Of a stretch of DNA of 64,000 nucleotides, positions 47,601 to 62,541 are shown one piece after another. The stretch is from Gammaproteobacteria bacterium (GTDB lineage: Bacteria > Pseudomonadota > Gammaproteobacteria > Arenicellales > JAJDZL01): contig JAJEHQ010000015.1 in NCBI GenBank assembly GCA_022823625.1, positions 62,001 through 126,000 of the forward strand, in the 5' to 3' direction. Position 1 is the first letter of the stretch. Each line of letters opens with the position of its first letter. A model generated the notes under the pieces. The model saw only the letters and a program-made list of their open reading frames with translations, did not search any database and was not told the origin of the DNA. The translations under genes and the position numbers were made by a program.

Positions 47601-48848
47601 TTATGACCAGAGCGCTCCAATTGGCACAGCAAACAGATCGTCTCCAAAAGCAGTACTGTGATCTCCGTCGTACAGCAGGATACCTTTTCGAAATCTTTGT
47701 CCTGCAATATTTCGGAATCGTTTTAGAGAAGAAAAGTCCTGTTTGTGCAGCGTAGCAGACGCCTTGGTTTCAATCGCAAAACATTCACCGAGCGAGTTTT
47801 CGATTATCAGGTCCACTTCAACCTTGTCCTTGTCCCTATAGTGGGAAAAACTTACCCTTTCGCTCAGCCAAACTGCTTGTTTATACAATTCGTTGCACAC
47901 GAAAGATTCCAGAACATTACCAAATTGTCCAGGGTTCAACAACAGGTTATCTGAGTTCAAGTTGCGTATGGCGCAAATCAGTCCGGTGTCAATCAAGTTT
48001 ACCTTCGGAGCTTTTACCAGTCGCTTGTACTCATTACTATGCCACGCCGGAATTCGTTGGACTAGATACAACTGCTCCAGCATTCCTACATACTTTTTGA
48101 CTGTTAGATTGTCTAAATCAAGTCTGTTTCCAAGATCACTGAGATTCAGTAGCTGTCCAGAACAAATAGCAAGAGCTTTCAACAACTTGTTCATTGACTC
48201 AGGATAATCGATGTTTGACATTTCGAGTATGTCGCTCTGAATCATCATATCGACATATTGCCGATACCATGCCTGACGTCGATGTTCGCTAGTGCGCAGC
48301 ACCGGTGCCGGGAAGCAACCGGTTACCAAACGGTCGATGATGTGATCGCGTATTCGAGTGTTGCGAGCTGTGAGCGGCTCAAGATTGAGCAGCCTATTCA
48401 GAAACGTGGGTGTTCTGTTGAGAATTTCGCACTCCGACAGTGCTAAAAGCGGAACAGTTTCCATGCGTCCTGTCAATGCGTCTGACAATTTGGGCAACAG
48501 CAGCGCATTGGCGGAACCCGTCAATAAAAAACGGCCATTTTGCCGTTGCTCATCGACTGTCTGCTTGATTGCCAGAAACAATTCCGGCAGCCTTTGTACC
48601 TCATCAATTATGATGCGTGTAGCGGGAAGGTGGCGAATAAACCCCACGGGATCATTTCTGGCTGTTTCCAGCTGTGCTTGATCGTCTAATGTGAAATAAG
48701 TCCATTCGTTGGTTTTTCCTTTCTCAATCAACTGCTTTGCAATTGTGGTTTTGCCAGCCTGGCGAGGCCCTGCGATAAATACCACCGGTGTATCGCGCAA
48801 AGCTTCTTGAATCATCAATTCAGAATTCCGCGTAAACGCGATAGCCAT
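47601..48848 (-). CDS. AAA+ ATPase with C-terminal DUF4143 (COG1373 type), copy 1
   Basis: 415 residues. N-terminal AAA domain with Walker A GPRQAGKTT (27-35), Walker B IIIDEVQ (D82, E83) and sensor LLTGSAN. A winged-helix segment (about 225-270) and DUF4143 follow, ending in a PD-(D/E)XK-like site: E344, D346, E360, K362 (KVEVDL and FAIETKAS). The molecular function of the family is unknown. Start ATG 48848 has AGGA upstream. The promoter carries four 22-bp-spaced direct repeats. It converges with the DUF3830 gene. Confidence 0.9.
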   Translation of the reverse strand: MAIAFTRNSELMIQEALRDTPVVFIAGPRQAGKTTIAKQLIEKGKTNEWTYFTLDDQAQLETARNDPVGFIRHLPATRIIIDEVQRLPELFLAIKQTVDEQRQNGRFLLTGSANALLLPKLSDALTGRMETVPLLALSECEILNRTPTFLNRLLNLEPLTARNTRIRDHIIDRLVTGCFPAPVLRTSEHRRQAWYRQYVDMMIQSDILEMSNIDYPESMNKLLKALAICSGQLLNLSDLGNRLDLDNLTVKKYVGMLEQLYLVQRIPAWHSNEYKRLVKAPKVNLIDTGLICAIRNLNSDNLLLNPGQFGNVLESFVCNELYKQAVWLSERVSFSHYRDKDKVEVDLIIENSLGECFAIETKASATLHKQDFSSLKRFRNIAGQRFRKGILLYDGDHSTAFGDDLFAVPIGALWS

Positions 48849-48866
48849 ATTTTGTTCCTACAGAAA

Positions 48867-48954
48867 ACCGTCTATATTGGATTATATGAGCGTCTAATTA
48901 TTATTAGGACTGCGTCTATATGTTATCAGAATACCGTCCATTATGCATTCAAAT
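48867..48954 (-). repeat. Four 22-bp-period direct repeats in the promoter of ATPase copy 1
   Basis: The box CGTCTA (CGTCCA in the last copy) begins at 48869, 48891, 48913 and 48935, exactly 22 bp apart. Downstream positions also agree (ATAT after the box in two copies, AT at the 15th-16th unit positions in all four). Read on the minus strand, TATAAT (plus 48881-48886) lies inside the array. Two-turn spacing suggests side-by-side binding of a regulator on one DNA face. Confidence 0.8.
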
Positions 48955-49016
48955 GTAAAATTTTCTTTGTTAAGTCGGCTTTTTCAACACCCGAATTTGT
49001 TTTTCAATGAAACAGC

Positions 49017-50294
49017 TTACCGCGTCCATAACTCAGAAACCGGCACAGCTAGAACTAATCCCTTGGCAAATGAGATGATGTCACTTCCTCTGTAGAACAG
49101 GATGCCTATTTGAAAATCATTACCGCATGCGTTGGCTAGCTTAATCAATCCTTTAGCGTCTCGCGAATTCACGCTCGTCTTGGATTTGATTTCGAATCCC
49201 CAGACTTTTTCCCTTAGAGTCATGACTAGATCGACCTCTACTTGGTCCTTATCCCGATAGTGCCAGAATCGTAAATCTGGGTTAGTCCACCCAGCGTGAG
49301 CAAAAATTTGCTGAACAACGAATGATTCACATAAATGATCCAGGTAAACTCGATTTTCTTCTTCGTTGTACGTAGGAAAATCTGCCAACGTCGCAGCCAA
49401 TCCGCAGTCGATAAAGTGTATTTTGGGGGATTTAGTCAGGCGTTTTGTTCTGTTGGAATTCCAGGCGGGAATCCGACGTACCAAATACACCCGCTCAAGG
49501 TATGCGAGATACCGCTCTAAAGTCAGTCTATGAACAGCGAGTGTTTTGGCCAATTCGCTGATTCTCAATACAGACCCAGTTCGCCAAGCAAGCAGTTCCA
49601 TAATTCGGTACAGCAATTCTGGATCCCTGATTTTGAAGGTTTCAGGAACTACTCTTTCCGCAATATCGCGTAAATAGCTTCTTCTCCACTGTCTTGCCCG
49701 AAGGATGTCGCGATTCAGGGGTTCGGTGTATCCACCAGAGATAATTCTCTCCTCAAACTGCAGATCTGACATGACTGTCAGATCTGTTCTAAATCCCGGT
49801 TGTAGCCAGTCGTTGAGCAAATCAATCAGAAAATTTCCACTTGATCTGGATTTCTCCGATTCTGCCAATGGATGAAGATCGATTATTTCCATTATTCCGG
49901 CGAGGGATTGTGACAAATTTTGGATGAGGTGCAAGTTAACTGAAGCCGTCAAAATAAATCGCCCGGGTCGCCGGTTCTGGTCAACGGAAACTTTAATCGG
50001 ATCGATGAGTTTCGGAACATTTTGAACCTCATCGATAGTGACTGTATCGGGCAAACGCTCTATGTATGAACCAGGATCTTCCGAAGCCATCACAAACTCG
50101 CTATATGTATCCAAATCTACGTAAGGACGACTTGGAAACATATGTTTCACCAATGCAGTTTTGCCAGATTGTCTGGCACCAAGCACACAAACTACGGGTG
50201 TGTTCGATAGTGCGTCACGAATCATCGATTCCACTAAACGTGGGGAAAACTCACTCTCGTTTTTCGTAAATGGCCAAACAGGTGGGAAATTCAT
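49017..50294 (-). CDS. AAA+ ATPase with C-terminal DUF4143, copy 2
   Basis: 425 residues. Walker A GARQSGKTA (39-47), Walker B VTIDEVQ (D88, E89), sensor region FILTASVN. After the winged-helix part the DUF4143 domain carries E353, D355, E368, K370 (QVEVDLV and FEIKSK), again PD-(D/E)XK-like. The first 20 residues (MNFPPVWPFTKNES) are an extra N-terminal extension. It is in tandem with copy 1 (168 bp between) but clearly divergent from it in sequence. The ATG is preceded directly by AAAGG, unusually close for a ribosome-binding site. Confidence 0.9.
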   Translation of the reverse strand: MNFPPVWPFTKNESEFSPRLVESMIRDALSNTPVVCVLGARQSGKTALVKHMFPSRPYVDLDTYSEFVMASEDPGSYIERLPDTVTIDEVQNVPKLIDPIKVSVDQNRRPGRFILTASVNLHLIQNLSQSLAGIMEIIDLHPLAESEKSRSSGNFLIDLLNDWLQPGFRTDLTVMSDLQFEERIISGGYTEPLNRDILRARQWRRSYLRDIAERVVPETFKIRDPELLYRIMELLAWRTGSVLRISELAKTLAVHRLTLERYLAYLERVYLVRRIPAWNSNRTKRLTKSPKIHFIDCGLAATLADFPTYNEEENRVYLDHLCESFVVQQIFAHAGWTNPDLRFWHYRDKDQVEVDLVMTLREKVWGFEIKSKTSVNSRDAKGLIKLANACGNDFQIGILFYRGSDIISFAKGLVLAVPVSELWTR

Positions 50295-50296
50295 CC

Positions 50297-50311
50297 TTTA
50301 TTCAGAATAAA
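50297..50311. promoter_or_regulatory. Inverted repeat abutting the start of ATPase copy 2
   Basis: TTTATTC-A-GAATAAA is a perfect 7-1-7 inverted repeat, 2 bp upstream of the copy 2 start codon, across the translation initiation region. Candidate operator. Confidence 0.4.
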
Positions 50312-50638
50312 TGTGGGGTTGACCGTAAATATTCTTAACACCTAATGTGGTATTCGAACAGAATTTGAATTGATATTAGGATTTCGTCTTTTTTTATATT
50401 AGAGTAAACATTCTCATTCAACTAATATTCTATCTTATTGTTATTTAATTATTATTTAGATAGTTATTACTTCGTACAAATTAGCAGTATTAATTCCATT
50501 GTATTGACCATTTACTTCCAAATTGAGACCATCAGTTTGCCATGTGCTGATGAACGTTCAGAATCAAGCGGATAAAAAAGGTTTTGATGAACTTACCAAG
50601 TTATAGAGCTGGATGAACTGACATGGATTGCTATAAGT

Positions 50639-50667
50639 GTGAAATATCGGAAATCTGTTCCTATAAT
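50639..50667 (+). promoter_or_regulatory. Promoter of ATPase copy 3, possibly leaderless
   Basis: TATAAT at 50662-50667 with GTGAAA at 50639-50644, 17 bp apart (4 of 6 matches to TTGACA). The ATG lies at 50675, 7 bp after the -10 box, about where transcription should start. There is no ribosome-binding site between, so the mRNA may be leaderless. Confidence 0.45.
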
Positions 50668-50674
50668 TCACACT

Positions 50675-51847
50675 ATGTTGGATAGGCTGATTGAAGAAAC
50701 ACTTCTAGAAACGATCGAGCACACACCCGCTGTCGTGCTCGTAGGCGCTCGTCAGGTTGGTAAAACAACACTGGCCAAGAAAATTGCAAAAGATGTTAAA
50801 TCAGTCTATTTGGATTTGGAAAATTCTCGAGACTTGTTTCGCTTGAGTGATCCCTTGTCTTATTTCAATGACAATAGCGACAAGTTAATTATTCTGGATG
50901 AGATTCAGCGAGTACCGGAGATTTTCCCGACACTACGCGGTGTGATCGACAATAACAGATGGGAGGGACGGAAAGGCAAACAGTTTTTGCTTCTCGGTCC
51001 TGCATCCATGCATTTATTGCGCCAGAGCTCGGAAAGCTTAGCGGGACGAATAAGCTATGTCGAATTGAGCGGGTTGAATGTTCTAGAAATCGACCAGCAC
51101 AGAACTGAATTGAACAAGCGTTGGTTGCGAGGAGGATTTCCCGAAAGTTATCTTGCTGAGAACAGTGAACAGAGTATGAATTGGTTGCAAGATTTGGTCG
51201 AAACATACCTTGAGCGCGACATACCAAATCTAGCTTTTCCGATTCCCTCGACAAGGCTACGACGATTGTGGACCATGCTGGCTCACCTGCAAGGTGAACC
51301 GGTCAACTATTCGAAACTTGGTGCGAATTTGGAAATTGATGGCAAAACCGTCAGTCGATATATCGATCTTTTGACTGACCTCCTGCTCGTACGAAGGTTA
51401 ACTCCTTGGCACGAAAATGTAAATAAACGACTAGTGAAATCTCCACGTTACTACGTGCGTGATAGTGGTGTATTGCATTATTTGCTAGGTATCTATGATT
51501 TCGACGCCCTATTGTCACACCCTGTGCTAGGAAAGAGTTGGGAGGGTTTCGTTATTGAAAATATCCACTCGGTCCTTCCCCGTATCGCTAGTACTTACTA
51601 TTACCGAGCAACGACCGGAGCAGAAATTGACTTACTGATCAGATTCGGATTCAACAATATTTGGGCCATCGAGATCAAGTATGGCGTTGCACCGAAAATC
51701 AGCAAGGCATTTGGCCCAACCTGCAATTCTCTAGGTATAAACAGAAAATTTGTCGTTTACGGGGGAGAAGAAGAATTTCCTATTGGTGATGACACGACAA
51801 TGATCTCTCTTCCCAGACTGATGCAAAAGATACAAAATGAGAATTGA
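50675..51847 (+). CDS. AAA+ ATPase with C-terminal DUF4143, copy 3
   Basis: 390 residues from ATG 50675; the family usually begins just before LIEETL-type helices, so the GTG frame start at 50639 (inside the promoter) is rejected. Walker A GARQVGKTT (24-32), Walker B IILDEIQ (D75, E76). The sensor region reads LLLGPAS instead of LLTGSAN. DUF4143 residues E317, D319, E333, K335 (AEIDLLI and AIEIK) are present. Sequence is the most divergent of the four copies. Confidence 0.88.
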   Translation: MLDRLIEETLLETIEHTPAVVLVGARQVGKTTLAKKIAKDVKSVYLDLENSRDLFRLSDPLSYFNDNSDKLIILDEIQRVPEIFPTLRGVIDNNRWEGRKGKQFLLLGPASMHLLRQSSESLAGRISYVELSGLNVLEIDQHRTELNKRWLRGGFPESYLAENSEQSMNWLQDLVETYLERDIPNLAFPIPSTRLRRLWTMLAHLQGEPVNYSKLGANLEIDGKTVSRYIDLLTDLLLVRRLTPWHENVNKRLVKSPRYYVRDSGVLHYLLGIYDFDALLSHPVLGKSWEGFVIENIHSVLPRIASTYYYRATTGAEIDLLIRFGFNNIWAIEIKYGVAPKISKAFGPTCNSLGINRKFVVYGGEEEFPIGDDTTMISLPRLMQKIQNEN

Positions 51848-52217
51848 ATGCCGCTGCTTGCCATATTCTAACGACGAACCTACCCCGATCTGGTAGCGAC
51901 GTGTAAACGATCCACACAGAAATTTCACGTGAAAATGGCTGTATTGACTTCGGCTGGTCTAACTGTATCTCAAACTCCGTTGGACGGTGAATTCACGCTT
52001 CACCAGTTCCGTAATGCAATGGGTACTGCCACTTTTCACCGTTGTTCAAGAATTTTGTAGCGGGTGTTCATTTCTCGCAGAACTGTCAAAAAACCATCTG
52101 TCTGGTCAGACCTGAATCAATCGACAACTGTTCGCAATACAATTGCATCAGATTCAAAAACTCAATATTTTGCATTCGAAAATCGGTATCGGATGGAACC
52201 ACAAGGAGGAACTTATC
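51848..52217 (+). other. 370-bp gap before the solute-binding protein gene
   Basis: Holds a perfect 12-bp palindrome, TTTCACGTGAAA (51923-51934), and a 43-codon open frame (GTG 51929 to TAG 52060) with no recognised homology and no ribosome-binding site, so it is not called as a gene. The promoter of the next gene should be in the second half. AAGGAGGA (52203-52210) is its ribosome-binding site. Confidence 0.4.
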
Positions 52218-53012
52218 ATGAACATGAAGCCTCTTGCTCTAGCCATTGGCACTGTCTTGAGTCTGCTGACACTTGGCAACGAATTAGCATTCGCCGCAGA
52301 TAATCGAATTGACTTAATTCAGGAAAGGGGCGAATTGGTAGTGTGCCACTCCGATTATCCGCCATGGTCTTACAAAGATCGTAAAACAGGGAAATGGATC
52401 GGGGTCTCTGTAGAATCGGCGAAGCACCTAGCCTGGGCCTTAGGCGTTGATTACAAACCCATAGAAGCTGATTTCTATACAAGGGTTTCATTTGTGGAGA
52501 CCGGAAAATGCGACATAACTATGACTCCGATCTATCAAGATGTGAAATATGCGATACGAGTGCTGTTCTCTGACCCTATCAAATATGAATTCCAAAGTGT
52601 GGCAGTCCATATAGATTCACCCCTGCAAACTCACAAAGACGTGGATCAGGAGGGCATCACTGTTGTCGTCGGTCCTAGTTTAGCTGACGAACTTCTTGCC
52701 GAGCGTTTTTACAAGAGAGCGACAGTGAAAAAACTCGAATACCCGAAAGACTTCTCCACTTATTTTCTGGAAGTTTCCTACAGGCGGGCCGATGCTTTGC
52801 TGTATGACAATACGATGATCAGAGACTTCATCAAACAGAATCCAGACATGAATCTCAGAATCATCGATGATGCACCGCTTAGTCCACAGGGTTTCTCTTA
52901 TGTAGTGCCGTTAGGAGAGTATCACTTTATTAACGTCGTAAATATCTTGCTCAAAAAGTTTGAACAGGGGGGATGGAATTACGAGTGGTATCAAAAGTTT
53001 ACCTCAGAGTAA
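52218..53012 (+). CDS. Polar amino-acid ABC transporter substrate-binding protein (orphan)
   Basis: 264 residues from ATG 52218, with a perfect AAGGAGGA upstream; the longer frame from 52143 is rejected. Signal peptide about 1-26 (LAFA before ADN). Family 3 solute-binding domain: GELVVCHSDYPPWSY, SVESAKHLAWALGV, CDITMTPIY. It is clearly paralogous to 57179-57970 but about as diverged as separate specificities. No permease adjoins; it may share the transporter at 58136-60310. The following DddP-like gene is in the same direction. Confidence 0.88.
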   Translation: MNMKPLALAIGTVLSLLTLGNELAFAADNRIDLIQERGELVVCHSDYPPWSYKDRKTGKWIGVSVESAKHLAWALGVDYKPIEADFYTRVSFVETGKCDITMTPIYQDVKYAIRVLFSDPIKYEFQSVAVHIDSPLQTHKDVDQEGITVVVGPSLADELLAERFYKRATVKKLEYPKDFSTYFLEVSYRRADALLYDNTMIRDFIKQNPDMNLRIIDDAPLSPQGFSYVVPLGEYHFINVVNILLKKFEQGGWNYEWYQKFTSE

Positions 53013-53058
53013 TCGTGCGTATATATCGGTTGCTTGAATTCGGCTTGTACTTATTGAA

Positions 53059-54252
53059 TTGTTGAATTCTAGTCAACCAATTGACGAAGTAGCGGTACGT
53101 CAATATCGTTTGGATGCAATACGGTCTCTCGCAGCTGACAACGATCTAGCAGCAGTGTTGCTGTTTGATCCCATCAACATCCGCTATGCAAATGGCTCGC
53201 GATCCATGCAAGTTTGGACAATGCACAATTTCTGCCGCTATGCACTGATACTGACATCGGGTCCATCCGTTATGTTTGAACTACCGACCAGCATGCACTT
53301 GCTCACGGGGCTCGAATCCGTTGAGGAAGTACGACCTGCCTGGTCGACAGATTATCAGTTCACGGGTTATCGGACCGAAGAGATAGTCACTAAATGGGCT
53401 CAGGAGATTGATGATCTGGTCCGCAATTACTGTGGTGATAACCGCCGCTTGGCCGTTGACCGACTGGATGTGCACACTGCCCTTGCACTGATCAAGTGTG
53501 GGTTGGTGCTTGAGGACGGGAAAAGTGTGATGGAGCATGCAAGAGCAATCAAGTCCCTGGAAGAGATTCGTGCTTTCCGGGCATCGCTATCGACCTGCGA
53601 AGCCGCGATGCATGAATTGAGGAACCAGGTTCAACCGGGAATGACGGAACAGGAGGCATTGTCCATTCTGCTGGCGGAGAGCATACGCCGCGGTGGCGAA
53701 TATCCTGAAACGCGCTTGATGACATCAGGACCGCGTACCAACCCGTGGTTTCAGGAAACAAGTAATCGCGTAATCGAAAACGGAGAGTTTCTTTCGTTTG
53801 ACACTGATTTGATTGGTCCGATGGGATTCTATAACGACATATCCCGAAGTTGGATCGTCGGTGATGCTAAGCCGACAGATGAGCAAAGAAGACTGTACGC
53901 CGAATCGAGAGCGCAATTGGAAACCAACATTTCATTGTTGACCCCGGGGTTGTCTTTCTTGGAGTACTCGTCCATGGCTTATCAATTGCCGGAAGAGTAT
54001 CTCGCAAATCGCTACGCCGATGTGGGGCATGGTTGTGGTCTCGGTGTTGAGTATCCTTTTCTTTGGTATCGTGAGGATGAAAAATTTGGTGCCTATGATG
54101 GCGTGTTTGAGGAAAACATGGTGGTATGCATAGAAAGTTATGTCGGTGAAATAAACGGCCGAGAAGGGGTAAAACTGGAGCAACCGGTATGGATCAGCGC
54201 CAATGGACCCGTTGTGCTGTCGGACTTTCCGCTTGAGGATGATCTGAGCTGA
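53059..54252 (+). CDS. DddP-like M24 family protein lacking the catalytic Asp
   Basis: 397 residues from TTG 53059 (no ATG near). The protein aligns with DMSP lyase DddP with, as far as I can align from memory, a constant offset of 47: ETRLMTSGPRTNPWFQE, FDTDLIGPMGFYNDISRSW, GHGCGLGVEYP. Metal ligands D248, D250, D260, H324, E359 and E374 correspond to DddP D295, D297, D307, H371, E406 and E421. The base D377 of DddP corresponds to V330, so classical DMSP cleavage is unlikely. Pairing with a solute-binding protein points to uptake and hydrolysis of a related small compound. Confidence 0.8.
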   Translation: MLNSSQPIDEVAVRQYRLDAIRSLAADNDLAAVLLFDPINIRYANGSRSMQVWTMHNFCRYALILTSGPSVMFELPTSMHLLTGLESVEEVRPAWSTDYQFTGYRTEEIVTKWAQEIDDLVRNYCGDNRRLAVDRLDVHTALALIKCGLVLEDGKSVMEHARAIKSLEEIRAFRASLSTCEAAMHELRNQVQPGMTEQEALSILLAESIRRGGEYPETRLMTSGPRTNPWFQETSNRVIENGEFLSFDTDLIGPMGFYNDISRSWIVGDAKPTDEQRRLYAESRAQLETNISLLTPGLSFLEYSSMAYQLPEEYLANRYADVGHGCGLGVEYPFLWYREDEKFGAYDGVFEENMVVCIESYVGEINGREGVKLEQPVWISANGPVVLSDFPLEDDLS

Positions 54253-54256
54253 AACT

Positions 54257-54273
54257 GTATCTTGAGGAGATAC
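54257..54273 (+). terminator. Small hairpin after the DddP-like gene
   Basis: GTATCT (54257-54262) and AGATAC (54268-54273) form a perfect 6-bp stem with a 5-nt loop right after the stop codon. No U-tract follows; weak evidence for termination. Confidence 0.3.
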
Positions 54274-54415
54274 GGAAACCAACCAGCCACGTCCCCAATG
54301 ACGGGATTAGTTTAATCAACTACCTCAACGGACATATGCTCGCCTCAAAATGCTGAATTTAGGTTCCGTACTGATTCGACAACACCATATCTAAGTTGAA
54401 ATTAACTGTTAATTA

Positions 54416-54474
54416 TTTTGTAAATATAAATTCTTATTTTATGATTTAATAAACTAACTTTTATATTTACAAAA
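54416..54474. repeat. Perfect 15-bp inverted repeat upstream of ATPase copy 4
   Basis: TTTTGTAAATATAAA (54416-54430) and TTTATATTTACAAAA (54460-54474) are exact reverse complements separated by 29 AT-rich bases. The right arm ends 17 bp before the ATG of copy 4. It could be a dual operator or a cruciform, or the ends of a tiny non-autonomous element. Confidence 0.75.
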
Positions 54475-54491
54475 CCATGTGATTTAAATCG

Positions 54492-55736
54492 ATGATTGAG
54501 CGACAGCTCAAAGAAAGGATTTTGGAAGCACTAAATACGTTTCCAGTTATCTTCATTAACGGTCCAAGACAGGCGGGTAAAACCACACTTGTCCAACATC
54601 TGGCAAAAACTGAATGTCCTGCGGACTACGTTAGCTTCGATGATTTCAACTTTTTTCACGCCGCGGAAACAAATCCTCAAAGTTTCTTGCGAGCATTCAA
54701 GGGTCGATTGATTATTGATGAAGTCCAGTTAGTACCGAGTGTTTTTCGTGTGATAAAGATGCTCGTAGATGAAACTCGACAAATGGATCATGTCAATGCT
54801 AATGGTCGATATCTTCTAACCGGCTCAGCAAATGTCATGACTTTTCCTGAACTCTCAGATGCACTAGTCGGTCGCATGTGCACCTTTCCGCTATTCCCGC
54901 TGTCTGCACTCGAAATTTCCAAAGGTCGAGGTGAGTTTTTGGAACGGCTATTCAATAACGAGTTTCAATTTGGAACAAGAAAACAAGACATTGGGATAAC
55001 CGAAATGATTCGACAAGCAACATTTCCTGAAATTACCAATTTGGATGATGACAGTCGAAAGGAGTGGTTTAGTGCATTCTCAACCGCCATACTACAACGC
55101 GAAGTCAAGCAAGTTGCAGCAATATCCAAAGCCAGAGTTCTTCCAAATCTACTCAGCGTATTGGCATCGCGTGCCGGGGGGTTGATCAATGAAGCAGATA
55201 TCGCGAGAACAATCAAGGAAAATTCAGTTACTACAAAAAGTTATCGCATTCTCCTGCAGATGATTTTTCTCACATTTGATATCCAGCCATGGATTCGAAA
55301 CATCGACAAACGTTTGGTCAAATCGCCCAAGGGTTATATTTTGGACACATCGTTATTGTGCTACATTCGACAGATTGACCTGTCTTACGCTGAAAAATTC
55401 CATCCAGATTTATTTGGGTACCTGTTTGAAAATTTTGTCGCATCTGAACTTCTCAAACAAGCCACGATATCAAAACTGAGAGCGCAACTCTACCACTTCC
55501 GAACTAGTGACAACAAAGAGGTTGACTTCGTGCTGGAAACACCTGACGGTAAACTAGTTGGTGTCGAAACCAAAAGCCGAGATTCAGTAACAGCAGCTGA
55601 TTTCAAAGGACTTAAAGTTCTTCAACACCAAGTAAAAAATGACTTCATCTGTGGCATCGTGCTCTACTGTGGACAACACGTGATTCCATTTGGGGACAGG
55701 CTTTGGGCAATTCCCGTTTCCGAAATGTGGGCATGA
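54492..55736 (+). CDS. AAA+ ATPase with C-terminal DUF4143, copy 4
   Basis: 414 residues. Walker A GPRQAGKTT (24-32), Walker B LIIDEVQ (D76, E77), sensor LLTGSAN. DUF4143 carries E343, D345, E359, K361 (KEVDFV and GVETKS). It is most like copy 1 in its N-terminal motifs but differs through the middle. Start ATG 54492 without a clear ribosome-binding site. It converges with the aminotransferase at 55809. The upstream region has the 15-bp inverted repeat. Confidence 0.9.
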   Translation: MIERQLKERILEALNTFPVIFINGPRQAGKTTLVQHLAKTECPADYVSFDDFNFFHAAETNPQSFLRAFKGRLIIDEVQLVPSVFRVIKMLVDETRQMDHVNANGRYLLTGSANVMTFPELSDALVGRMCTFPLFPLSALEISKGRGEFLERLFNNEFQFGTRKQDIGITEMIRQATFPEITNLDDDSRKEWFSAFSTAILQREVKQVAAISKARVLPNLLSVLASRAGGLINEADIARTIKENSVTTKSYRILLQMIFLTFDIQPWIRNIDKRLVKSPKGYILDTSLLCYIRQIDLSYAEKFHPDLFGYLFENFVASELLKQATISKLRAQLYHFRTSDNKEVDFVLETPDGKLVGVETKSRDSVTAADFKGLKVLQHQVKNDFICGIVLYCGQHVIPFGDRLWAIPVSEMWA

Positions 55737-60342: not shown

Positions 60343-62541
60343 CTACTCGACCAAGAATCGTTCAAGAACGTTTTGTGTCAGTTTCGATATGTTGTTGTTG
60401 AATCCGTTCCAAGGCAGGCTACCGCAGTAAGTGATGGAGCCTACCGAAAACACATACCCGTTTTGAGGGGTTTGAAAAATAGTCATATCAGCCCGAATCA
60501 GTTTTTCTTCCGGGTCCCCCGTACGGGTTGCCAGGTGCGAAAGAATTTCTTCTGGCACCAAGATAAAGTGATCTGGGTAAGTCTCTGAACTTGCGAGGAC
60601 AACCGCATTGAGTGGGGTTCCAAGACCAAAGTCGACACGATCGAGTTCAAATCCAGCTGCACCGCCTCCGCTCAGTCCAAAATCTCCCAGAATATCATCG
60701 TCGATGCCTTCAAAGACCCATTCATATTCTGCAGGCACGTTGGGATTTTTCCGATAGTACATACCTTCAAAATCACCCTGAGCGCTAAATCCAACACCAG
60801 CCAGCTGTTGAGGTGGGCGACCGTTTCTGAGCCACATACCCCCATATTCTCCATCCAATGCGTTGTAGTATTCACCAGCTTCTGCTGCCCAGGTTCGAAT
60901 TCCACCTTCGGCTCTTCGAATTTCAATAATCCCGGGTAGGTCTTCACGGATCCCGATTTTCCAGTAGAATCCGTTTCCACCCATGTACATCAACCTTCCA
61001 CCTGTTCTGCTGTATTCATAAATTGCATCCAGGGTGTTGCCGGTGTGATACTCTGGATGGCTCATGGTCATTACAACACGATACGGACTTAGAATTTCAA
61101 TACCCTCCTCGTGAATGTCCTCATCGGAAATCACATCGTAGTCGTGCCCCAAGTGTTCAAGCCAGGCAAGCAAATGGGTATCTGCGGGTAAATGTCGCAT
61201 GCCCGATACGGCGTAGGGTCGAAAGATTGTCATATACCGTGGCCGCATGGTTAACGATGGTCTCAACCTGGAAGACAGGCAGATTCCACTGCCATCAGTG
61301 TGCGAGTTGTATGTGGAAAGTCCAAACTCGCGTACGATGTCTGGTGTCCAACGTCGGTTGCCCATTTTTTTGACCAGAGCATCGTAATCAGGCCCGGCCG
61401 TTCCACGTGCCTGATTGTTGTAGACGGTATAAGTAAAGGTCGGAATAATGACACAGATCTTGGATTGTGGTTTGCCAGTCTTGGGTCGCACATAAAAAGG
61501 AATGTCTTCAAATTCACCCTGGCACTCGATTCTCATTGAATACATAGCACTTCTGAAGTCATTAGGAACCTGGAATTCAAAGTCGGTTTCCCACTCGCAG
61601 TCGTAAATGTCATCTTCGTGGAAGTGGATGGCACCGTAATCCTCTGGTGCATGCTTCCAGGCCATCTCCTTTCCACTCCAGGTTGAGCCTCGCATCGCGC
61701 GGGTTGGAACATTGACCAATTCCCCATGCATGCGGAGCGGGCCAATGTCCTTGATGGACTGAGTACTGATGCCGAGTGAAAAGTCCCATTGCGCAATCGT
61801 ATTTTCAGCGTCAGTCCTAGAGGTGACCGAAGTGTCTCTTCTATATAGGGAATCGTGGGAATACACACAATTCATGATGCCCGGCAGTTCGATCTTTCCG
61901 TTGTAGTGGTTCGCTTTGACTTCGCTGCCTGATGATGCAATATAAATTTCCTGCACTTCAGCCAGTGAAGGTGACTGGTCAAATTGAGAGTCCTTGAAAG
62001 CGGGGGACAGATCATCGTTTCGCGGTCCACATGGAGACTGTCCAATAACAATTTTGTTGGTTTTGTAATTGACTGAGCAGCAGACGGTGTACCAAATTCG
62101 TTCATGCAAAACTTCGCTGAGGCGAAGTTCAGCGCCCGATTTGAGACAGGCTCCCAGATGACCTGAATCAAGGAATAGTTCAAGCAATTTTTCACCGGAA
62201 CTATCATTCAGACAAATGATTGACTGTCTGCCTGCATTAGGTAGTGTTGGCCAGATATTAGCTACAACCGAGAAATGGTCCTGGTGTGTTAATTTGCCTT
62301 CCACCTCTACCCGAGCATAGGACCCGAGTTTGATGGGCTGCTTCCGCGACGGAAATTGACCGGAATAGATTGAGCTTAAATCCTCTTCAATAATGCCGGG
62401 TCCAATCGGATTGGGGTCTGCGCAAGTGATTCGAACAAGTCTGACGGAATAGGGTTCGTCGAGTTCGCTGCTGACTTTGAATTGAATGGTCTGATTGTGA
62501 CCGAGACACCATCGGTCCGCATAACCTGATATTGGAATCAA
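60343..62541 (-). CDS. N,N-dimethylformamidase large-subunit-like amidohydrolase
   Basis: 732 residues from TTG 62541, preceded by GGAG; the first line (IPISGYADRW) matches the family opening. It has a lectin-like middle region (laminin-G-type beta fold, about 90-230) and the C-terminal catalytic domain (about 360-730) with RLRPSLTMRPRYM, MSHPEYHTG and GGRLMYMGGNGFYW. Characterised DMFase has a mononuclear iron site with two Tyr and one Glu and needs a small subunit; no candidate small-subunit gene is seen here. First gene of a six-gene operon with a transporter, so the likely substrate is imported. Actual substrate unknown. Confidence 0.8.
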   Translation of the reverse strand: MIPISGYADRWCLGHNQTIQFKVSSELDEPYSVRLVRITCADPNPIGPGIIEEDLSSIYSGQFPSRKQPIKLGSYARVEVEGKLTHQDHFSVVANIWPTLPNAGRQSIICLNDSSGEKLLELFLDSGHLGACLKSGAELRLSEVLHERIWYTVCCSVNYKTNKIVIGQSPCGPRNDDLSPAFKDSQFDQSPSLAEVQEIYIASSGSEVKANHYNGKIELPGIMNCVYSHDSLYRRDTSVTSRTDAENTIAQWDFSLGISTQSIKDIGPLRMHGELVNVPTRAMRGSTWSGKEMAWKHAPEDYGAIHFHEDDIYDCEWETDFEFQVPNDFRSAMYSMRIECQGEFEDIPFYVRPKTGKPQSKICVIIPTFTYTVYNNQARGTAGPDYDALVKKMGNRRWTPDIVREFGLSTYNSHTDGSGICLSSRLRPSLTMRPRYMTIFRPYAVSGMRHLPADTHLLAWLEHLGHDYDVISDEDIHEEGIEILSPYRVVMTMSHPEYHTGNTLDAIYEYSRTGGRLMYMGGNGFYWKIGIREDLPGIIEIRRAEGGIRTWAAEAGEYYNALDGEYGGMWLRNGRPPQQLAGVGFSAQGDFEGMYYRKNPNVPAEYEWVFEGIDDDILGDFGLSGGGAAGFELDRVDFGLGTPLNAVVLASSETYPDHFILVPEEILSHLATRTGDPEEKLIRADMTIFQTPQNGYVFSVGSITYCGSLPWNGFNNNISKLTQNVLERFLVE

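Follow-up and report, generated by a model that had tools for sequence, protein, structure and literature searches.

The array and its gene

The 64,000-nucleotide stretch considered here (the window) covers positions 62,001 to 126,000 of contig JAJEHQ010000015.1 from a gammaproteobacterial genome (GCA_022823625.1), and contains an array of four short direct repeats ahead of a gene for an AAA_14 + DUF4143 ATPase. The array lies in the intergenic region 48849-49016, between two minus-strand genes of this kind, and belongs to the downstream gene, 47601-48848 (Table 1). On the plus strand it appears as three copies of CGTCTA and one of CGTCCA (at 48869, 48891, 48913 and 48935), spaced at exactly 22 bp. 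Both the positions and the period had been reported in an initial annotation of the sequence and were confirmed by pattern counts, with three CGTCYA-N16-CGTCYA pairs in the window, all within this array, versus 0.02 expected from dinucleotide shuffles. The hexamer, which that annotation had taken as the box, is real and regularly spaced, but it is only the reverse complement of the 3′ half of a conserved unit of approximately 15 bp on the minus strand (48882-48867 for box 1), and corresponds to the TRGACG part of the family box described below. Read toward the gene, the units follow one another as ATGCATAATGGACGGT, ATAACATATAGACGCA, ATAATAATTAGACGCT and ATCCAATATAGACGGT, with the end of the gene-proximal box 18 bp from the ATG (-18). 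With four boxes at 22/22/22, the locus falls within the array-bearing subgroup, defined by three or more direct repeats with a period of 22 or 23 bp that end near the start codon. The bases between the window boxes are poorly conserved from unit to unit, and a repeat-family search over 48600-49300 returned no family, as the units share too few bases. A putative -10 element lies within the array, and the same phase, about 4 bp ahead of a box start, is seen in other family members.

The RGACG triple with 22-bp spacing was unique to this site in a pattern search of the whole 3.18-Mb genome, a search that the initial annotation had proposed. Two CGTCYA pairs do occur elsewhere in the genome, the same number as found with a reversed-pattern control, and are thus ascribed to chance. 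A further CGTCCA at 49023-49028, whose distance to box 4 is 88 bp (4 x 22), falls in the final codons of ATPase copy 2 (LWTR stop) and is probably also a chance occurrence.

Conservation upstream of orthologues, the lack of which had been named as grounds for abandoning the operator hypothesis, was found in close relatives. The orthologue of another species of the genus (L007, 81% identical) carries TAGACG at -93, -71 and -49 with differing intervening bases, and a homologue on the Marinobacter plasmid pMAQU02 (63% identical) is preceded by four boxes at 22 bp. More distant paralogues in the genus have other boxes at the same period, such as four TTTCAATCAGTCGG-like boxes.

Table 1. Array, promoter element and flanking ATPase genes, in window coordinates
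Feature	Coordinates	Strand	Remarks
AAA_14 + DUF4143 ATPase, 415 aa, PDC-S01	47601..48848	-	Pfam and PADLOC models
Operator box 1 (putative), gene-proximal, ATCCAATATAGACGGT	48867..48882	-	CGTCTA on + at 48869-48874
Putative -10 element, TATAAT	48881..48886	-	spacer between boxes 1 and 2; 2-base overlap with box 1
Operator box 2 (putative), ATAATAATTAGACGCT	48889..48904	-	CGTCTA on + at 48891-48896
Operator box 3 (putative), ATAACATATAGACGCA	48911..48926	-	CGTCTA on + at 48913-48918
Operator box 4 (putative), gene-distal, ATGCATAATGGACGGT	48933..48948	-	CGTCCA on + at 48935-48940
DUF4143 ATPase copy 2, upstream neighbour of array	49017..50294	-	AAA_14 + DUF4143; without its own 22/23-bp array

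The product of 47601-48848 matches AAA_14 (1e-27) followed by DUF4143 (1e-40) in Pfam, and is a full-length member of the PDC-S01 family (PADLOC PDLC04790, 516 bits, 2e-155). It contains a Walker A motif (GPRQAGKTT, residues 27-35), a Walker B motif with D82 and E83, a winged helix at approximately 218-266 that includes L248, the sequence HYRDK at 336-340, and a PD-(D/E)XK-type set of D346, E360 and K362. The Walker A sequence, D82 and E83, and D346, E360 and K362 are invariant or nearly so across ten array-bearing members. Structure prediction (pLDDT 82) has residue 248 opening helix 247-259, the last helix of the helix-turn-helix, and residues 336-340 at the turn between two strands, ahead of D346 of the PD-(D/E)XK-like core. 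A sequence search of the PDB gave no match.

Arrays across the family

The upstream regions of 194 distinct members, drawn from the window genome and related genomes, GTDB species genomes, viral contigs and plasmids, were assessed by self-similarity without a motif model, with 15 lags tried at periods of 16 to 30. Arrays were found directly before the start codon in 127 of these, at a period of 22 in 66 and of 23 in 58 (124 in total), and at other periods in three. The same procedure detected arrays in only 1/194 regions inside the coding sequence, 2/184 downstream and 0/185 at -500 to -290. Among the array-negative members some clearly have boxes, but too diverged ones, and others have none. 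In an earlier run, arrays at 22/23 bp preceded 52 of the 79 closest relatives versus none of 48 distant DUF4143 ATPases (150-250 bits). The hosts span Pseudomonadota, Acidobacteria, Verrucomicrobia, Chloroflexi, Spirochaetes and actinobacteria; a phage collection contained only distant homologues, below 30% identity.

Every alignable array fits the consensus TTTTCAATTGGACGG, in a single orientation relative to the gene and in 3 to 8 copies. A matrix built from this box recovered 49/61 held-out arrays at 22/23 bp when lags of 12-33 were allowed, and its controls were nearly empty (0/100 other DUF4143 ATPases, 0/312 shuffles, 0/104 reverse complements and 1/636 other genes). Over approximately 2 Mb of fetched locus DNA, 87 array matches stood before recognised family genes and seven elsewhere, six of the latter before apparently broken or split copies and one unclear. 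The spelling of the box varies among paralogues of a single genome and recurs with related proteins across classes and phyla; thus, specificity appears to travel with the gene.

Correspondence between box bases and protein residues

Co-variation between boxes and proteins was assessed with a sliding window and with a tree-based test; mutual information was dropped as a measure because near-invariant columns dominated it. Over 97 aligned arrays, similarity in the 3′ half of the box tracks local similarity of the proteins, with partial rank correlations of 0.52 at residues 331-345 and 0.34 at residues 256-280; the 99% maximum under permutation was 0.20. The co-change test used a tree built without the relevant protein columns and covered approximately 5,600 position-residue pairs, the best of which joined box position 2 to residue 248 (12 same-branch changes versus 1.8 expected, p = 2e-10). 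Box position 3 was likewise associated with residue 248 (p = 1.3e-6), and position 11 with residue 340 (p = 2.6e-4), where K/R recurs with A or T/C.

These associations can be written as a code in which box positions 1-3 read TCC with K248, TTT with V248, TTA with Q248, nGG with E248 and TAA with L248, while the 3′ half reads GCCG with R340 and GACG with HYRDK. K248 is accompanied by C at position 3 in 24/24 cases and R340 by C in 15/15. For 42 arrays that joined the data set later, 63/74 code predictions were correct versus 37% when permuted; the rules for K, V, Q and E at 248 and for HYRDK predate these arrays and were correct in 52/63, whereas the L248 and R340 rules were set after all arrays were in hand. 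Many of the later members resemble earlier ones (median identity 68%), and below 60% identity only 8/12 predictions hold. The window agrees with the code, pairing L248 with TAA and HYRDK with GACG in its majority box, although positions 2-4 vary from box to box and its protein is itself part of the code data set.

A proposed self-bound operator and its alternatives

Because box sequences vary together with two ATPase positions that are predicted to read DNA, self-binding becomes the leading explanation of the array. The array would be a private operator, bound by the downstream ATPase in a head-to-tail row that represses the gene's own promoter, a reading given a probability of roughly 0.78. 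That the array serves the ATPase gene and may be bound by the ATPase had been suggested in the initial annotation, and the suggestion gains support from the presence of arrays in most of the subfamily and from the box-to-residue co-variation. What the sequence shows directly is the array, that it is conserved and in phase with the gene, that it is coupled to two regions of the protein, and that it is missing elsewhere. The winged-helix recognition helix, in the region of residue 248, would read the 5′ half of the box of approximately 15 bp, and the PD-(D/E)XK-like hairpin (HYRDK, 336-340) would read the 3′ half (RGACG). With direct repeats spaced by 22 bp, or about two helical turns, the subunits would align head to tail on one DNA face, over the -10 element and the predicted start site, which is placed near 48874 in box 1. 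The gene would thereby be held in homeostasis, its repression being released by titration, by ATP state or by an invader. Direct binding, head-to-tail assembly, repression and release are the steps that we infer.

Given binding, autorepression is the probable outcome. It is favoured because boxes cover the -10 element in the window and the promoter spacer in one group of relatives that includes L200 and L097, where, as read from the sequences, one box fills the spacer of a TTGACT-17-GATAGT promoter and the next overlaps the -10. The same coverage argues against an alternative in which the bound ATPase activates the promoter, or uses the array as an assembly site for self-marking or for nucleation of a defence complex. 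Direct repeats would suit such head-to-tail AAA+ assembly, the protein family is a defence candidate, and 3 to 8 boxes exceed the minimal need of an operator; activation or assembly is nonetheless considered unlikely.

Several observations weigh against autorepression by a self-bound ATPase. Repression and activation are not distinguishable by reading sequence, and the TATAAT at 48886-48881 (minus strand), although present within the array as the initial annotation held, has a weak -35 (TCCTAA, 17 bp spacing), with a consensus promoter scan reporting other weak candidates in its place. No clear array was detected in 67/194 members at the threshold used. In the sliding-window test the 5′-half signal is spread over the protein and so partly reflects kinship, and the association with residue 340 would fail correction for all pairs tested. 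Foldseek matches to the AAA+ part of the model are only loose (NLR/Apaf-1, clamp loaders, ORC).

A separate host transcription factor would be the conventional occupant, as an operator array usually has a dedicated regulator bound to it, and the small protein RptR represses a phage-defence island at three direct repeats (PMC12255303). This is improbable for the present arrays: the boxes differ between paralogues of the same genome yet go with the ATPase from one class or phylum to another, their bases track ATPase residues 248 and 340, and the genes neighbouring the ATPase are unrelated on ten plasmids. RptR is still the nearest regulatory precedent found, since in both cases a defence promoter carries, or would carry, a series of direct repeats through which it is repressed. 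RptR, however, is a dedicated regulator, a small homodimer whose site is a 6-bp palindrome, whereas here the putative regulator is the ATPase itself and the box is asymmetric, approximately 15 bp long, repeated at 22/23 bp and spelled privately for each gene copy. Neither a small dedicated regulator gene nor TAGCTA palindromes were found, the boxes being of an asymmetric GACG type with variable neighbours on the ten plasmids.

The repeats also resemble plasmid iterons. In Rep-iteron systems, the tandem repeats are bound by the product of the adjacent gene, which autoregulates, and like the array here they are direct, near 22 bp in period and beside the gene for the binding protein. A replication origin served by the ATPase as initiator would further suit the many plasmid-borne homologues and the AAA+ character of the gene, but is very improbable. 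The window gene is on a 131-kb contig in a genome with approximately 31 DUF4143 ATPase matches, and copies occur across many genomes; on the listed plasmids the gene sits among unrelated cargo, and several of these records have typed replicons. The protein matches candidate-defence models, with no replication initiator or Rep domain in Pfam. Further differences from Rep-iteron systems are an unrelated protein family, paralogue-by-paralogue divergence of the box, and no indication of a replication role. Chance or neutral tandem duplication, for which the poorly conserved inter-box bases might be cited because the boxes could then pass for coincidence, is refuted by the controls, the excess at lags 22/23 being 124 to 3 with boxes kept and spacers not. 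An element acting at the RNA level was likewise rejected, as the predicted start site of the window gene is downstream of boxes 2-4.

The proposed arrangement has parallels in DnaA and Orc1/Cdc6, both AAA+ ATPases and weak Foldseek matches. These proteins have a C-terminal DNA-binding domain and assemble on repeated sites, and DnaA autoregulates. Unlike them, the DUF4143 ATPase adds a PD-(D/E)XK-like domain that apparently reads half of the box, and no origin function is indicated for it.

More speculatively, DUF4143 ATPases as a group may be recodable sequence readers built of two modules, the winged helix and the PD-(D/E)XK-like hairpin, and may line up head to tail on private promoter arrays, with the array acting both as an autorepression switch and as a defence sensor: the ATPase would be drawn off by invader DNA, or altered by its nucleotide state, and the gene released. 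Paralogues would recode residues 248 and 340 along with their boxes, which, if true, would let many copies share one genome without cross-talk.

Relation to previous work

PDC-S01, of which the window protein is a full-length member, has been described as a gene family only; it reportedly ranks fourth in abundance among prokaryotic defence families, with experimental validation pending for most such candidates (PMC12988326). Among the few expression data for the family, the Thermus thermophilus DUF4143 ATPase gene TT_P0211 rose 6.6-fold in the presence of both plasmid DNA and Argonaute (PMC4406477), an isolated hint of regulation. Searches of open-licence papers for DUF4143, COG1373, 22-bp repeats with an AAA ATPase, and self-repression yielded nothing on DNA binding, regulation, arrays or a code in this family, nor was any work on PDC-S01 protein function found there. 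Thus, the gene family is already known, while the arrays and the residue-to-base code appear to be new, no report of them having been found. The code marks PDC-S01 ATPases as predicted sequence-specific DNA binders and names two candidate contact regions. It also provides a predicted binding site for each gene, from which gel shifts, reporters and structures could be designed, and suggests how tens of paralogues might coexist without cross-regulation.

Neighbouring copies and divergent members

Four DUF4143/AAA_14 ATPases (PDC-S01) lie within 8.2 kb at 47601-55736, and a clear array is present only at the first. Ahead of copy 2, at approximately 50360-50420 on the minus strand, there is a lone box-like AAAAAAGACG, with AAAAATAGACG in its relative L066 (G005); the box-like sequence is perhaps a decayed array. 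In L057 (G004), at about 1400-1500, a near-identical four-unit array (41/44 bases at lag 22) stands before an ATPase gene broken by stops, and the array therefore seems to outlive its gene. A subclade without 22/23-bp arrays (L011, L012, L132, L213 and L218) has instead a palindrome of CCACTnAGTGG type (CCAC...GTGG) near the start codon, which may be an alternative self-operator. A more distant group (L245, L314, L315, L276 and L237) carries TAAAATMGCGG- or CTAATMGCCG-type boxes at 23 bp, in up to seven copies.
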